A DNA stretch of 33,317 nt from Acholeplasmataceae bacterium (lineage in GTDB: Bacteria > Bacillota_I > Bacilli_A > Acholeplasmatales > Acholeplasmataceae), in NCBI GenBank assembly GCA_021736335.1, contig JAIPGC010000009.1:1-33317 (forward strand), read 5' to 3'. The notes below the pieces were generated by a model, which saw nothing but the letters and a program-made list of their open reading frames with translations, was not told the origin of the DNA and did no database searches. This document shows, piece after piece, positions 4,268 through 12,852 of the stretch. Made by a program: the position numbers and the translations under genes. Numbering within the stretch: the stretch's first letter is position 1; each line of letters starts with the position of its first letter.

Positions 4268-4310
4268 GACGCTTCTAGCGTCTTCTAAAGGAACCTCGGT
4301 TCCTTTTTTT
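4268..4310. terminator. Double-hairpin terminator between convergent operons
   Basis: Two hairpins follow one another: GACGC-TTCTA-GCGTC (4268-4282) and AGGAACC-TC-GGTTCCT followed by a run of T (4288-4310). The second is a strong intrinsic terminator for the pullulanase operon. It abuts the stop codon of the convergent gene and may serve both strands. Confidence 0.85.
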
Positions 4311-5119
4311 TATGCAAAATACTTCTTTCCATACCTTAGCATGACAATCATTGTTATAATACCCATACCTAGTTGAAAGAAAACTGGGGAGAAAGCTGGT
4401 TCGAAAATACCAACGACAAAACTAAGTATTGCCGGTACTGCCATCATGTAGACCAAGAATTTCAAACTATCTACATAAGTAAAGAATTTTGTATATCCAA
4501 ACCTAAAAAGTTGTAAAACCAAGGAGAGTATCACGAGAAATAAAGCATTCAATGCGATACTTGTTATCGTATTAACTAATAATGTGTAAAGTACAATATA
4601 TGGGCTAAATGATGATTCTATTGATTGTCCAAATTGCTCATAAAGTAATGCCCGATCGACACCCTCTGATAGATTAAGCTCTAAAAAGCTTTGAGAATAA
4701 TTAAATCCCTTATAATCATAACCTACCATGCTGGCATTTTCGCCATTCGTATAAATAATGGTCGTTTCTTTAAAAAGAACTTGTTTTTTAGATAAATCGT
4801 AATCGGTGCCTTGATAATTAAAGATATAGACGATATCTTGATGCTCATATGTATACTCTGTATCATCAGAACATACAAGCTTAGAGGCTGTTATCCCACA
4901 CGTTTCAGGCAACACCCAGTCAGGTGTTTCCAATGTAAAGCTTTCTGCAATAAAATTAAGTCTCCAACCTTGTTCTTTGACAATTAAGAAGTTGAGTGGG
5001 AAAACATTAATCATGCACAAAATTAAAAAATAGATTACAATCTTCCACATCTTTTCATTAACATGTGTAAACACCTTACTATATTGAAGTGAATATTGTA
5101 AAAAGCGAACGAGAAACAT
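4310..5119 (-). CDS. DUF1189 family membrane protein (MalA/YvdJ-like)
   Basis: The 269-residue protein has one membrane segment near residues 26-47, an extracytoplasmic part (about 50-170) with two cysteines (C74 and C83 region), and three or four membrane segments in the C-terminal 100 residues. This layout and the N-terminal FLQYSLQYSKVF fit DUF1189. Members of that family sit in maltodextrin loci (B. subtilis YvdJ, streptococcal MalA), where their function is not settled. Its ATG shares one base with the stop codon of the upstream alpha-amylase gene (TAATG), so translation is probably coupled. The context supports a role in alpha-glucan use. Family assignment is from layout and resemblance, not a search. 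Confidence 0.7.
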   Translation of the reverse strand: MFLVRFLQYSLQYSKVFTHVNEKMWKIVIYFLILCMINVFPLNFLIVKEQGWRLNFIAESFTLETPDWVLPETCGITASKLVCSDDTEYTYEHQDIVYIFNYQGTDYDLSKKQVLFKETTIIYTNGENASMVGYDYKGFNYSQSFLELNLSEGVDRALLYEQFGQSIESSFSPYIVLYTLLVNTITSIALNALFLVILSLVLQLFRFGYTKFFTYVDSLKFLVYMMAVPAILSFVVGIFEPAFSPVFFQLGMGIITMIVMLRYGKKYFA

Positions 5120-6642
5120 TAAATGTAATCCTCAATTCTACTAGGGTCTACTGTAACAATTAAAGAACCATAGGCTGGTATATCAAGTGTTCCATAAAGA
5201 ATTTCAAGGTATTCAATATCAACTGAATAAGAATCCATGGATAAATTATGCAAAACAAGTACGGCTTGCTCTATATCTTCATACATAAAGTATCTTAGAT
5301 ATCCTTGAATATTTGAAGTATTGTTGACATAAGGCTCAAAATAATTCCCATACATTAAAGCAGGATTATTCTTTCTGATCTCTATCATTTCACGATATTG
5401 GTTGAACATTGAATTTTGATCATCTTTTTGATTCAACAAACTTGGTGTTTGATCATTTGACCCATCACTTGGCAACCAAGTGGTTTGATATGTTGCACTA
5501 CCCCATAAGAAAGGTTGTCTGCGATACTCATCATAAACCGTACCGTATCCAGGTATATTAGATCCCTCATAACGATATCCTTTCATCCCAATCTCATCAC
5601 CATAATAGATGAATGGACTTCCAGGAAGTGTTAGAAAAACTCTTGCTGCTAATGATAACTTTTCAAATGTGTTATATGTATTAAAACCACCCATGGATGC
5701 AACTCGATCCACATCATGATTACCGATGAATGGTGAATCCACAAAATCAGGTTTAATTGATCTAAAATCGTCATATGCTTTCTTCAGGTTTGATGCAAAT
5801 AAATATCTATTGTTCCCATATCCGATTTTGTCCCAAACATTGCCAGCAACATTGAAATTAAAAACTGAGTCTGATCCAATATAATAATCAGTTAAAAACT
5901 CATAATTATAATCGAAAACCTCAGAAACTAAGAAGCTATCTGGATTGATCTCTTTCATGTATTGGTTGAATTCAAAAATCAATAAAGCATTCTCGATGGT
6001 TGCATTATTGCCTTCTATCAAATGCTTAGCTGCATCAATTCTAAACCCATGCACACCCATATTCAAGTAGAAACTCATAATATTTTCGACTTCAGCAATG
6101 ACTTCAGGATTTTCAAAATTTAAATCCTTCATGCCACCAACGAAGCTTTCATATGCATTTCCGTTGTTCCATATATAATAATCGCGATATTGGCTTGATG
6201 TACTATTTAGAGCTGATATATACCATGGATGTTGATCGGAAGTATGATTGATGACTAAATCCATAATGATATCAATATTTCTTAATGAAGCTTCATCAAC
6301 TAGATTCTGAAAGTCCTCTAGTGTTCCGTAATCAGACTCGATGTCATAATAATCAGTAATGCTATATCCATGATAGGAAGGTGAGGGATTGATAGGCATT
6401 AGCCAAATTGCTGTTGCACCTAATTCCTCAATGTAATCTAGATTTTGCGTGATGCCATTCAAATCTCCTATGCCATTGCCATCACTATCAGCAAATGATC
6501 GCACAAAAATCTCATAATACACATCATTTTGTGGATATATTTGTGATAAGTCAATTGGTTCAATAATGGGATCTTCTTCTTTACAAGCATATAATCCAAT
6601 CACAAGAAGGATTACTACAAAAATTGAAAATACTTTTTTCAT
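5119..6642 (-). CDS. Alpha-amylase lipoprotein (GH13)
   Basis: This 507-residue lipoprotein should cleave alpha-1,4 links of starch or maltodextrin at the cell surface. The signal peptide ends in LYAC with the lipidated cysteine at residue 20. The GH13 motifs are complete: DLVINHTS (128-135), GFRIDAAKHL with nucleophile D203, VSEVFD with acid/base E241, and FIGNHDVDR with D310. The YYEIFVRSFADSDGNGIGDL opening (residues 42-61) and short C-terminal beta domain resemble lipoprotein alpha-amylases of subfamily GH13_36; oligo-1,6-glucosidase or a transglycosylase specificity is not excluded. It is the middle gene of three joined by TAATG overlaps (RDD protein before, DUF1189 protein after). GAGAGGG precedes the ATG. 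Confidence 0.92.
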   Translation of the reverse strand: MKKVFSIFVVILLVIGLYACKEEDPIIEPIDLSQIYPQNDVYYEIFVRSFADSDGNGIGDLNGITQNLDYIEELGATAIWLMPINPSPSYHGYSITDYYDIESDYGTLEDFQNLVDEASLRNIDIIMDLVINHTSDQHPWYISALNSTSSQYRDYYIWNNGNAYESFVGGMKDLNFENPEVIAEVENIMSFYLNMGVHGFRIDAAKHLIEGNNATIENALLIFEFNQYMKEINPDSFLVSEVFDYNYEFLTDYYIGSDSVFNFNVAGNVWDKIGYGNNRYLFASNLKKAYDDFRSIKPDFVDSPFIGNHDVDRVASMGGFNTYNTFEKLSLAARVFLTLPGSPFIYYGDEIGMKGYRYEGSNIPGYGTVYDEYRRQPFLWGSATYQTTWLPSDGSNDQTPSLLNQKDDQNSMFNQYREMIEIRKNNPALMYGNYFEPYVNNTSNIQGYLRYFMYEDIEQAVLVLHNLSMDSYSVDIEYLEILYGTLDIPAYGSLIVTVDPSRIEDYI

Positions 6643-7094
6643 TAGAACCCTCTCTTTCTCATTGATTCGGTCTTGTTCATGAAATTGTTTTTTCCAGTGG
6701 GTTTTTCCAAATCAATAACTTTTGTTTTAAATATATAATCATGTACTGTTCTGCCTGATTTATCAGATAATATGAAAAACGAGACGATCATGTAAACACT
6801 GAATGTACCTATGCTTAAGATTAATTTGAACATATCTCTTAAAAATACTTTCCATAGTTCTACATCAGATCCATCTAAATTCACAACTCTTATTTTTTGG
6901 ATTCTTTTACCAAAAGTTTGTCCTTTGGAAAAAATATATGGAACGAAATAAAAGCCTAAAAAGGCTGAGCCACTGACAATATATGGTAATTCTAAAAATA
7001 CATCTCCTAGAGCCCAAGAAATAATGACAAATAGCATCACTCCTGATGTATCAATTGCGAAGGCTCTAACTCTTTTTTCAAATGAAGGAATCAT
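6642..7094 (-). CDS. RDD family membrane protein
   Basis: The 150-residue protein carries the RDD pattern: RVRAFAID near the N-terminus (R10, D15), GQTFGKRIQKIRVV in the middle, and GRTVHDYIFKTKVI near the end, with about three membrane segments. RDD proteins are small membrane proteins of mostly unknown role; some are proposed transporters. It is the first gene of the amylase operon and its stop codon shares one base with the amylase start. GTGAGGT precedes the ATG at 7094. A link to sugar export, import or amylase placement is inferred from the operon alone. Confidence 0.85.
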   Translation of the reverse strand: MIPSFEKRVRAFAIDTSGVMLFVIISWALGDVFLELPYIVSGSAFLGFYFVPYIFSKGQTFGKRIQKIRVVNLDGSDVELWKVFLRDMFKLILSIGTFSVYMIVSFFILSDKSGRTVHDYIFKTKVIDLEKPTGKNNFMNKTESMRKRGF

Positions 7095-9311: not shown

Positions 9312-9890
9312 ATGAAAAAACAACATAATTTACTTGAGCTGTTTCTTACATTTTTAAAAATTGGTGCTCTAACATTTGGTGGTGGCTATGCCATGATGCC
9401 AATTATGCGCAAGGAAGTCGTTGAAAGAAAACAATGGGCTGATGATGATGATATATTAAAAATACTTGTGATATCTGAATCAACACCTGGTGTTTTAGCC
9501 GTTAATTCAGCTACTTTTATTGGCTATAAAATTGCTGGTTTCAAAGGCAGTTTGGTAGCTACATTAGGTGTTGTTATACCTTCTTTTATCATAATCTCTT
9601 TGATTTCTTTATTTATCGTTCAATTCCAACAATTGACATGGGTAGCATATGCCTTTAGGGGTATACAAGCTGGTGTTGCAGTCTTGATTTTTAAAGCAGC
9701 TATCAAATTATCCAAAAAAATACACTTTGATTTATTTGCTATTATCATTTTAGTTTCTTCAATTCTATTTGCTTTATTTTCTGAAATTAGCGTCATCTAT
9801 GCATTAATGGTTGGTGCTGTTTTAGGTATTATATATGGTTCTCTTATCCAACTTAAGGAGGTAAAAGCTGATGATACTCACACTTCTTAA
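9312..9890 (+). CDS. Chromate-type transporter, half-length subunit 1
   Basis: The 192-residue membrane protein has the CHR family motifs FGGGYAMMP (about 23-31) and SESTPGVLAVNSATFIGYK (about 57-75), followed by several hydrophobic segments. At this length it is one half of a transporter; short-chain CHR proteins usually come as adjacent pairs working together. Known members export chromate, but many in anaerobes have unproven substrates. GGTGAGGTG precedes the ATG. It overlaps the second half gene by 20 bases. Confidence 0.88.
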   Translation: MKKQHNLLELFLTFLKIGALTFGGGYAMMPIMRKEVVERKQWADDDDILKILVISESTPGVLAVNSATFIGYKIAGFKGSLVATLGVVIPSFIIISLISLFIVQFQQLTWVAYAFRGIQAGVAVLIFKAAIKLSKKIHFDLFAIIILVSSILFALFSEISVIYALMVGAVLGIIYGSLIQLKEVKADDTHTS

Positions 9891-10473
9891 CCTCTTTTGG
9901 ATGTTTTTTAAAATCGGATTATTCACTTTTGGTGGTGGATATGCGATGATTCCATTGATTCGTGATGAACTTGTAGGTGGTGGATATATATCTGCTGATG
10001 CTCTCATCAATTTCATTGGAATCAGTGAATCAACTCCTGGACCTGTTGCAGTCAATATGGCAACATTCATTGGGTTCAGTCAATTTCAAAATGAAAGTAT
10101 CTTCTATGCTTTATTTGGTGCTTTTGCTACTACTTTAGGTGTGATCCTTCCTTCATTCATTATTATTTTACTTATTGCCAGCTTGGGCAGTAAATTTCTC
10201 CAAAGCAAAATTGTCAATCACGCTTTTCTTGGACTCAAACCTGTCGTGATAGGACTAATCATCAGTGTATCAGCTGCACTTATGGTTCGTGCAGCACTTC
10301 CTAATATTGACTTTGAAAACTTAATTTTTGATTTTTCTCAGTTTAATTACAAGGGATTAATTATTTTGATCATCGTAGGTGCAATAACCCTATTCTATAA
10401 AAAAATGTCTCCCATCAAAATCATCCTACTTTCAGCTATTTTAGGGATGCTGATTTATGGATTGATACCCTAG
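9871..10473 (+). CDS. Chromate-type transporter, half-length subunit 2
   Basis: The 200-residue protein repeats the CHR signature: FGGGYAMIP (about 20-28) and SESTPGPVAVNMATFIGF. It differs from subunit 1 in sequence, consistent with an ancient duplication giving a heterodimeric transporter. The ATG at 9871 lies within the end of the first gene, with AAGGAGGT at 9854-9861, so the pair is translated together. Substrate is uncertain: chromate, sulfate or another oxyanion. Confidence 0.88.
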   Translation: MILTLLNLFWMFFKIGLFTFGGGYAMIPLIRDELVGGGYISADALINFIGISESTPGPVAVNMATFIGFSQFQNESIFYALFGAFATTLGVILPSFIIILLIASLGSKFLQSKIVNHAFLGLKPVVIGLIISVSAALMVRAALPNIDFENLIFDFSQFNYKGLIILIIVGAITLFYKKMSPIKIILLSAILGMLIYGLIP

Positions 10474-10480
10474 GTGAATG

Positions 10481-11218
10481 ATGAAAGATCTTAGTTGGAT
10501 TCAAAATAACTTAATCGCACATCGAGGTTTGTATTCTAAAGATCAAAGCATTCCTGAAAACTCTATAGCTTCTTTTAAGCGAGCTATGGATAAAGGTTAT
10601 TCTATTGAATTTGATGTCAATGTTTTAAAAGATGGAACTGTGCTTGTCTTTCATGATTATAACTTTAATAGAATCTGCAATGACTCAAGAGAACTCAAAG
10701 ATGTCACCTATGATCAATGCAAACATCTTACATTATTTGATACTGATGAACTCATACCTACATTGTCTCAAACACTTAATCTTGTGAGTGGGCAAGTCCC
10801 TTTACTGATTGAACTTAAACCACATGGAGATGTCATTCTGTTATGTGAATCATTTATGAAAACGATGATGGATTATCAAGGTGTATGGGCTGTCTTCTCG
10901 TTTCATCCGAAAGTTGTTAGCTGGTTCAAAAAAAATTATCCTGACGTTATAAGAGGACAAATATCAGAATACTTTAAAAACGATAAAGATATGAATCCAA
11001 TAGCAAAACACCTCATGAAAACAATGTTCTTTAATCGCTTTACTAAGCCAGATTTCATCAGTTATGGTATCTATGATATGCCTAATAAATATTTGAATCG
11101 ATCCATGAAAAAAGGCATAACTGTTATCAGCTATGCCGCAAGATCTCAACAAGATTTTGATTTCGTAAAAAGTCATTATCATAATACAGTCTTTGAATTC
11201 TTTGAACCAAAAATATAG
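10481..11218 (+). CDS. Glycerophosphodiester phosphodiesterase
   Basis: The product (about 245 residues) should hydrolyse glycerophosphodiesters to glycerol 3-phosphate and an alcohol. Family motifs are present near the N-terminus: AHRG (His and Arg around 13-15), PENS, EFDV (Glu and Asp metal ligands), VFHD (catalytic His), then LLIELKP. There is no signal peptide, so it acts in the cytoplasm, probably on deacylated phospholipids. Two ATGs lie in tandem at 10478 and 10481; the second has better spacing from AGGTG (10472-10476). It begins 7 bases after the transporter pair and shares their operon, though a functional link is not obvious. Confidence 0.9.
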   Translation: MKDLSWIQNNLIAHRGLYSKDQSIPENSIASFKRAMDKGYSIEFDVNVLKDGTVLVFHDYNFNRICNDSRELKDVTYDQCKHLTLFDTDELIPTLSQTLNLVSGQVPLLIELKPHGDVILLCESFMKTMMDYQGVWAVFSFHPKVVSWFKKNYPDVIRGQISEYFKNDKDMNPIAKHLMKTMFFNRFTKPDFISYGIYDMPNKYLNRSMKKGITVISYAARSQQDFDFVKSHYHNTVFEFFEPKI

Positions 11219-11247: not shown

Positions 11248-12852
11248 TTAATCCATATCTACATCAAAGCTTTCAAGAAGTGTCTTCTTCTCAGCCTTTG
11301 AATCTCCATGTTTTGTGAAAAACATTGTAATGAATGCTAATGCTACAAAGAATGTTGCATATGGGAACAGCATCTTTTGATGGATGGTATCCATTAAGAA
11401 CCCAGATAATATAGGTGTTACAATTTGTGCAGCCATTGAGAAGGAATAATAATATCCAGTGTATCTACCTACATTTGAACCTTTAGCAAGCTCAACAACC
11501 ATTGGATATGAGTTAACATTGATTGTTGCCCAACCAACACCTGTCAAACCAAATACAATATACATAATCCATCCTGTATCATGGCTTAAGAAGAATACTG
11601 AACCAAAACACAATGTCAATAAAACAATACCAAATAAGATTGTTTTTCTACGACCAAATTTAGTAGACAAAATGCCAATTGGAATGAATGCGATAATCGC
11701 TGTCACATTAGCAATTAATAAAGGAATCGTAAATGATGCTAGTTGTAAAATCTTAGGAGCATAATCTGAAACCTTAGTCATTACAGCATTATAACCCATG
11801 AACCATAAGAATACAGAGAATAAAATTAAATATAATGATAGTTTCTTATCCTTCGGTAAGTCGTTTGCTTCATTGATATCATCTTCTTCTTCAATCAAAC
11901 CCCATTTGACATCATCAGCAACACGTTGCTCAACCAATTTAGGTTCTTTTACTTTCCATAAGAAGATTGCTAAAACGATAAGCATGACGATACCCACTGT
12001 TACAAAAGCCATGGTGTAATGAACATAAGACTTTCCACCTAAACCATAAAGTGTCAATATAATGAGTGCGGTAACACCAGCAGCAGCTCCCATCAGATTG
12101 ATAACAGCATTTGCTTTACTTCTTAAAGGTTTCATTGTCACATCAGGCATCAAAGCAACTGCTGGAGATCTAAAGATTGACATGAAAACAAGAGCAATTA
12201 ATAATACTAAAACAAAGATAATGAAATTGAAAGGATTTGCTACAGTAACTTCCCAAGCTAAATCACTTAAATAAACGTTATAATATCCATCTAAATATGA
12301 TAAATCACTAACTTCAAGTGAACCTGTCGTTCTACCATCTAAAATCAAATTGATTTTGTCAAGAACTTTGGTTTCCCAAGTTGCATAGCGTTCAGCAGTA
12401 ATTGTTCCACTTGATTGAGCAGCAGTTCTTTCGGTTGTCATCTGATCAACTAGTGTTACCCAATAGTCAATTTCTAGACGATCCACTGCATCATCGTGAT
12501 TAGCCTCATATAATTCAATAATTGTGTTAGTTTCTTCAATACGGGTTGTTTGCACGCTATCCATATAAGATAATCCCATGAATGCAAATGCAGCGACAAC
12601 AGTACCTACTATAACATAAGGTGTGCGTCTACCTAGTTTTCGATTAGACTTATCAGATAAAGCACCAAAAAGTGGTAACATGAATAAAGCTAATACATTA
12701 TCTAATGCCATGACAACACCAGACCATGTCTGATTCAAACCAAACTTGTCAATTAGAATTTTAGTTATAATTGAATCATAGGTTTGCCAAAAAATTGTGA
12801 TAATAAAGAATGCTAAACCAATATAAAACGTCTTTTTATAATCTAGTTTCAT
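11248..12852 (-). CDS. MFS sugar transporter (GPH/SLC45-like) with large extracellular loop
   Basis: The 534-residue permease has about 12 membrane segments. The loop after segment 2 reads GALSDKSNRKLGRRTPYV (64-80), typical of sucrose/maltose:proton symporters of the SLC45/GPH type, and LSTKFGRRKT marks the equivalent loop in the second half. Between segments 3 and 4 lies a hydrophilic stretch of about 109 residues (99-207), predicted outside the cell and absent from usual members. It is rich in acidic and helix-forming residues. A probable substrate is maltose or short maltodextrin released by the amylase and pullulanase, inferred from the neighbourhood. AGGGTG precedes the ATG. A single-gene unit with its own promoter. 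Confidence 0.82.
   Translation of the reverse strand: MKLDYKKTFYIGLAFFIITIFWQTYDSIITKILIDKFGLNQTWSGVVMALDNVLALFMLPLFGALSDKSNRKLGRRTPYVIVGTVVAAFAFMGLSYMDSVQTTRIEETNTIIELYEANHDDAVDRLEIDYWVTLVDQMTTERTAAQSSGTITAERYATWETKVLDKINLILDGRTTGSLEVSDLSYLDGYYNVYLSDLAWEVTVANPFNFIIFVLVLLIALVFMSIFRSPAVALMPDVTMKPLRSKANAVINLMGAAAGVTALIILTLYGLGGKSYVHYTMAFVTVGIVMLIVLAIFLWKVKEPKLVEQRVADDVKWGLIEEEDDINEANDLPKDKKLSLYLILFSVFLWFMGYNAVMTKVSDYAPKILQLASFTIPLLIANVTAIIAFIPIGILSTKFGRRKTILFGIVLLTLCFGSVFFLSHDTGWIMYIVFGLTGVGWATINVNSYPMVVELAKGSNVGRYTGYYYSFSMAAQIVTPILSGFLMDTIHQKMLFPYATFFVALAFITMFFTKHGDSKAEKKTLLESFDVDMD

Follow-up and report, generated by a model that had tools for sequence, protein, structure and literature searches.

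Membrane transporters genetically tied to a GDPD enzyme (glycerophosphoryl diester phosphodiesterase) are known from glycerophosphodiester salvage, as in GlpT/GlpQ and UgpQ, and MFSD2A and LplT are comparison cases for MFS proteins that act in a flippase-like manner on lysolipids or lipid headgroups. QacA, a DHA2 MFS exporter, has an extracellular helical hairpin (EL7, approximately residues 441-467) between TM13 and TM14, which has a gating or allosteric role and without which resistance to the tested compounds was lost (PMC10425836). SLC45A4 carries a regulatory plug (residues 414-462), an extended coil packed on the intracellular gating helices (PMC12507699).

Here we analyze a window of 33,317 nucleotides (the whole stretch of DNA under study; contig JAIPGC010000009.1 of an Acholeplasmataceae bacterium, probably wall-less) that encodes an MFS transporter with a large insert. 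Like EL7, the insert is predicted to be a helical extracellular element carried by two prolonged TM helices, and it occurs in a subset of its family. In contrast to EL7, which is essential for efflux, it comprises approximately 109 residues, lies between TM3 and TM4 in another subfamily, and is naturally absent from some lineages. By analogy, EL7 counts against regarding the insert as a dispensable cap, as such a loop can be essential. The transporter resembles SLC45A4, ranked 1-2 by fold, in being an MFS protein with an extra segment (regulatory in SLC45A4); whereas the plug is an inner-side coil, the insert is predicted to be external and helical. As for GlpT/GlpQ and UgpQ, the transporter gene is tied to a GDPD gene; different from GlpT/GlpQ, the best Pfam matches of the transporter are MFS_1/MFS_2 and its substrate is putative. 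The transporter and its relevant parts are located as follows (window coordinates):

11248 to 12852, reverse strand: MFS transporter, open reading frame for a 534-aa protein (stop codon within the coordinates), Pfam MFS_1/MFS_2
12619 to 12663, reverse strand: loop 2-3 (residues 64-78), cytoplasmic by charge, with a stretch that we take to be MFS motif A-like
12529 to 12624, reverse strand: TM3 helix (residues 77-108 in the AlphaFold model; hydrophobic segment 77-98)
12232 to 12558, reverse strand: extracellular insert (residues 99-207) between TM3 and TM4, from alignment, model and charge
12409 to 12471, reverse strand: insert helix (residues 128-148), in the whole and insert-only models
12340 to 12396, reverse strand: insert helix (residues 153-171), in the whole and insert-only models
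12238 to 12312, reverse strand: insert helix (residues 181-205) entering TM4, in the whole and insert-only models

The transporter matches Pfam MFS_1 (PF07690) at 6.5e-35 and MFS_2 at 7.3e-12 (45 bits, cut-off 27), and its structural model matches MFS structures with a best E-value of 6.7e-8. The best profile stretches listed, residues 17-94 (MFS_2) and 344-522 (MFS_1), flank the insert. Against NCBIfam TIGR00792 the protein scored 22.3 bits (cut-off 231), and a score of 25.4 bits against TIGR01301 (cut-off 511) does not place it among the SLC45/sucrose transporters, to which it is only distantly related; the sucrose transporter SUC1 was its sole PDB sequence match at E ≤ 0.01 (7.1e-4). In a Foldseek comparison of the whole model, SLC45A4 was followed by MFSD2A chains at ranks 3 and 4, but the rank carries little weight, as sialin, GlpT and many other MFS proteins fit about equally well (query TM-score mostly 0.5-0.6). 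We regard the protein as a secondary transporter within the MFS that probably belongs to the MFS_2/GPH-like group; "sugar transporter" is a superfamily label only and unproven.

The preliminary description had reported a hydrophilic, helix-prone insertion at residues 99-207 between TM3 and TM4, and sequence, alignment and AlphaFold model all confirm it. The 109 residues are acidic (net charge -13) and contain no TM-like 19-mer (highest Kyte-Doolittle mean 0.38); a net negative charge is found in all 134 insert-bearing homologues (mean -9.8). Positively charged loops of membrane proteins face inward. Loops 2-3, 4-5 and 8-9 of the transporter are K/R-rich (net charge +4 at residues 64-80) and thereby predicted inside, so that the charge pattern would put the insert on the outer face of the membrane. 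This agrees with the external side proposed earlier, and no topology with the insert inside was found.

The AlphaFold2 model of the whole transporter, built with 56 sequences, has a mean pLDDT of 88.4 and a pTM of 0.84. Rather than being disordered, the loop is modeled as ordered and helical, with 10-residue blocks at pLDDT 83-95 and helices at residues 111-118, 128-148, 153-171 and 181-205, the last leading into TM4; TM3 continues approximately 10 residues past its hydrophobic segment into the insert. Modeled alone (pLDDT 78, pTM 0.67), the insert adopts the same three main helices. The confident predicted fold is that of an ordered external helical domain on prolonged TM3 and TM4.

Comparison of the insert-only model with known structures gave a best E-value of 0.76 in Foldseek, with none at ≤ 0.001, and in VIA-align a best Z of 7.4, obtained with designed three-helix bundles; this resemblance may reflect no more than a common arrangement. 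Neither EF-hand nor another named family was prominent in the two lists, which excludes nothing. In a Pfam scan of 36 inserts no family matched more than three; GvpG reached that number (3/36, best 4e-4), which is too few for an assignment, as are the weak matches of SHOCT/SHOCT_2 in one or two of the 36 (best 1.1e-4). A search of PDB sequences with the insert profile returned Cas9 chains as its best matches (E 0.047), which we take as chance. The idea of an EF-hand had been raised by helix-loop-helix units in the model that contain bridge residues, together with a canonical loop in one homologue (L061). This was rejected as a family trait, as the canonical loop occurs in 1 of 134 inserts, and EF-hand was absent among the best 25 of 60 and the best 25 of 36 families in the insert scans. 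The single case is the final loop of the L061 insert, an EF-hand-like DHDGDGTFSPRE unique among the 134 inserts scanned.

We confirmed 126 relatives of the window protein and kept the best 80 loci, split by record title and rank into 31 of Acholeplasma/Izemoplasma type (L032-L061, L103) and 49 others, mostly Clostridia (L084, among the latter, is titled Bacillales). An alignment of 55 homologues from these loci with the window protein shows the insert in all 56 rows, at a length of 83-192 aa; the homologue survey thus finds it kept by close relatives, in Acholeplasma/Izemoplasma-type genomes and rumen Clostridia. In 166 distinct family proteins, this region falls into two length classes, 53-192 aa in 134 and 0-7 residues in 32, with no intermediate. 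Being common to 56/56 aligned homologues and 134/166 members, the insert is no chance or assembly artefact. All 49 loci outside the Acholeplasma type carry it (83-124 aa), and 47/49 of these Clostridia-type loci keep 83-93 aa. The window's own assembly, which is incomplete, yielded the window copy as the only family copy.

No part of the transporter varies more than the insert: its mean column entropy in the 56-row alignment is 2.33 bits, against 0.80, 1.04 and 0.92 in the membrane parts and 1.42 in the C-terminal tail, with the cytoplasmic central loop close behind (2.12 bits). In all seven near pairs compared, the dN of the insert exceeded that of the core, by 1.3 to 13 times either core part where core dN was above 0. 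The dN/dS of the insert was 0.056-0.30 in the five of seven pairs with a value, a rough estimate, as two pairs were saturated and dS was mostly >1. These values point to an insert that is fast-evolving yet constrained. The longest insert, of 192 residues (L061, 6283-6882), is a tandem duplicate with 37% identity over 84 residues and a repeat alignment score of 136, compared to ≤ 62 in 1000 shuffles; the module is thus able to act as a unit of its own. Six other long inserts showed no clear repeat, none of their scores being more than 4 above the shuffle maximum.

Relatives without the insert were placed by FastTree on core columns only (126 thinned rows, midpoint-rooted), which separated 26 insertless rows (support 1.0) from 100 rows on the other side, where L153 was the sole insertless row. 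A 132-row tree with two more insertless genomes (L199 being the same genome as L153) grouped L195, L196 and L199 together as a clade (1.0). This clade is nested in a larger one of 91 rows (0.988), where the only other rows lacking the insert are L207 and L208, with 13-residue loops. The lineage of L195, L196 and L199 has likely lost the insert, although a loss is not proven, as support is weak (0.594) for their exact position next to or among the Clostridia-type rows. Fourteen positions that separate the insert-bearing and insertless clades (e.g., K360) were considered as insert-linked and rejected: 12/14 are kept in insertless L153, and since L153 groups with the insert-bearing side, most of them mark the clade and not the insert. 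A congener of the host (G004) has a 444-aa insertless relative in the place of the window gene (L112, 4919-6253), downstream of the same 2-oxoacid oxidoreductase genes and with two extra genes before the GDPD gene; it also has a separate insert-bearing homologue beside rplM-rpsI. A second insert-bearing group lies between rplM-rpsI and gltX in six of the eight loci tested (L117-L121 and L124; e.g., L120, 5214-6818). Since some relatives naturally do without the insert, the family does not require it for its basic transport cycle. The built-in substrate capture that had been suggested may still be one of its roles, but an insert this variable, and absent from the sister clade and three genomes, is not needed for core transport.

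The neighbor of the transporter in the window is:

10478 to 11218, forward strand: glycerophosphoryl diester phosphodiesterase (GDPD), PF03009 at 3e-20

This gene is convergent with the transporter gene across a gap of 29 bp, and the two therefore do not form an operon. Two adjacent half-size chromate-transporter genes (PF02417) lie beside it (9312-10473), a pair that is kept in 14/80 loci by ORF clustering. A tblastn search of the 80 loci used GDPD, HAD phosphatase, amylase and pullulanase as queries; as flanks extended up to 6 kb and were often shorter, the neighbor counts are lower bounds. GDPD was found in 58/80 loci (26/31 Acholeplasma-type, 32/49 others), a linkage in keeping with a glycerophosphodiester salvage module, and within 300 bp of the transporter in 46 (19 and 27, respectively); it was not found by tblastn in 22/80, some with short flanks. 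We estimate the chance of a random gene having GDPD within 6 kb at approximately 3% (the window's own 1.75-Mb assembly has four GDPD genes), and give no P-value as the loci are related. In Acholeplasma-type loci the GDPD gene lies downstream and convergent; elsewhere it is either upstream and divergent or downstream in the same direction. Since the arrangements differ between the groups, the association arose or was retained repeatedly. It is also independent of the insert, as GDPD occurs in 6/19 short-loop loci (two genes off in L112, adjoining in L114, L205, L206, L207 and L208); it was not found in the other 13, including L195, L196 and L199, which have short flanks. None of the eight divergent insert-bearing loci (L117-L124) has GDPD. 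A HAD phosphatase lies within 300 bp of the transporter in 0/31 Acholeplasma-type loci vs. 13/49 others, where it is 0-71 bp upstream and of subfamily HAD-IIA, as judged from the one protein scanned, which scored above the subfamily cut-off. An N-terminal hydrophobic stretch is present in 0/24 Acholeplasma-type GDPDs listed (17-residue mean ≤ 1.04) and in 22/23 Clostridia-type GDPDs listed (L065-L111; 1.69-3.76), the exception, L072, probably having a wrong start.

Our preferred explanation, to which we assign a probability of roughly 45%, is that the transporter is an importer of glycerophosphodiester-like lipid remnants or related phospho-compounds with an accessory extracellular cap; the substrate, the direction and the role of the lid are all inferred. 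Counting against this reading are the loci in which no GDPD was found, the convergent rather than operon-like gene order, and the hydrophobic stretch of the Clostridia-type enzymes. The transporter would take up a glycerophosphodiester or a close lipid-derived phospho-compound, such as what remains of a phospholipid or glycolipid after deacylation; the neighboring GDPD would handle the same metabolite. As the Acholeplasma-type GDPD has no membrane anchor, cleavage of the imported diester would take place in the cytoplasm, whereas the N-terminal hydrophobic stretch suggests that the Clostridia-type GDPD may act outside, with the transporter taking up the cleavage product. By analogy with the QacA EL7 hairpin, the insert, standing on the prolonged TM3 and TM4 helices, most likely serves as an accessory lid, stabilizer or gate of the outward face; an essential role in binding the substrate is less likely.

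That the protein instead imports sugar or maltodextrin, with the insert capturing oligosaccharide or docking the nearby amylase or pullulanase, is the least probable of the readings and in our view very unlikely. The MFS_2/GPH-type similarity and the SUC1 match point in this direction, as do an amylase 4.6 kb and a pullulanase 7.4 kb from the transporter (the amylase gene sits in a tightly packed trio with genes for a DUF1189 protein and an RDD protein, 4310-7094, reverse strand). However, the conserved GH13 linkage of a starch-utilization transporter was not found: amylase/pullulanase genes are near 15/31 Acholeplasma-type loci and 0/49 others, though all 49 bear the insert, so that the proximity is local synteny and the recurrent neighbor is GDPD. 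The docking of the insert to the amylase or a starch-binding protein, as proposed in the preliminary description, is not supported by these counts, and starch capture is unlikely as the usual gene neighbor cuts lipid breakdown products, not starch.

A flippase-like MFS protein for lysolipids or lipid headgroups, with GDPD acting as a lysophospholipase D and the insert as a cap at the lipid interface, would fit the GDPD linkage, and is in keeping with the MFSD2A ranks and with a weak match of GDPD to the NCBIfam lysophosphatidylglycerol phospholipase D model, far under its cut-off. Given that Foldseek scores sialin, GlpT and many other MFS proteins alike, we regard it as distinctly unlikely. 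Somewhat less improbable, though still unlikely, is a main role of the insert at the surface of wall-less cells, where it would diversify as a shield or decoy against phages, proteases or competitors and take no direct part in transport. Its entropy, its elevated dN in every pair, its length range and the duplication in L061 would fit such a function; on the other hand, variability is almost as high in the cytoplasmic central loop, dN/dS stays below 1 with dS near saturation, and the Clostridia-type inserts are nearly uniform in length.

Going beyond the importer of lipid remnants preferred here, it is possible, if doubtful, that these proteins form a class of Bacillota MFS importers not described so far, which would take up lipid-derived glycerophosphodiesters and be recognizable by their extracellular helical cap. 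This cap, swappable, duplicable, quickly diversifying between species and without clear PDB match, would tune substrate access or surface contacts. Among the papers listed from one open-licence library we found no paper on this insert-bearing transporter family, none joining SLC45, MFS and glycerophosphodiester phosphodiesterase, and none on SLC45/MFS transmembrane proteins with an extracellular domain insertion. If the preferred reading is right, it would provide a testable substrate class for a widespread, unnamed family of transporters found in gut Clostridia and in bacteria of the Acholeplasma type, along with natural insert-plus/insert-minus pairs for probing large extracellular domains in MFS transporters.
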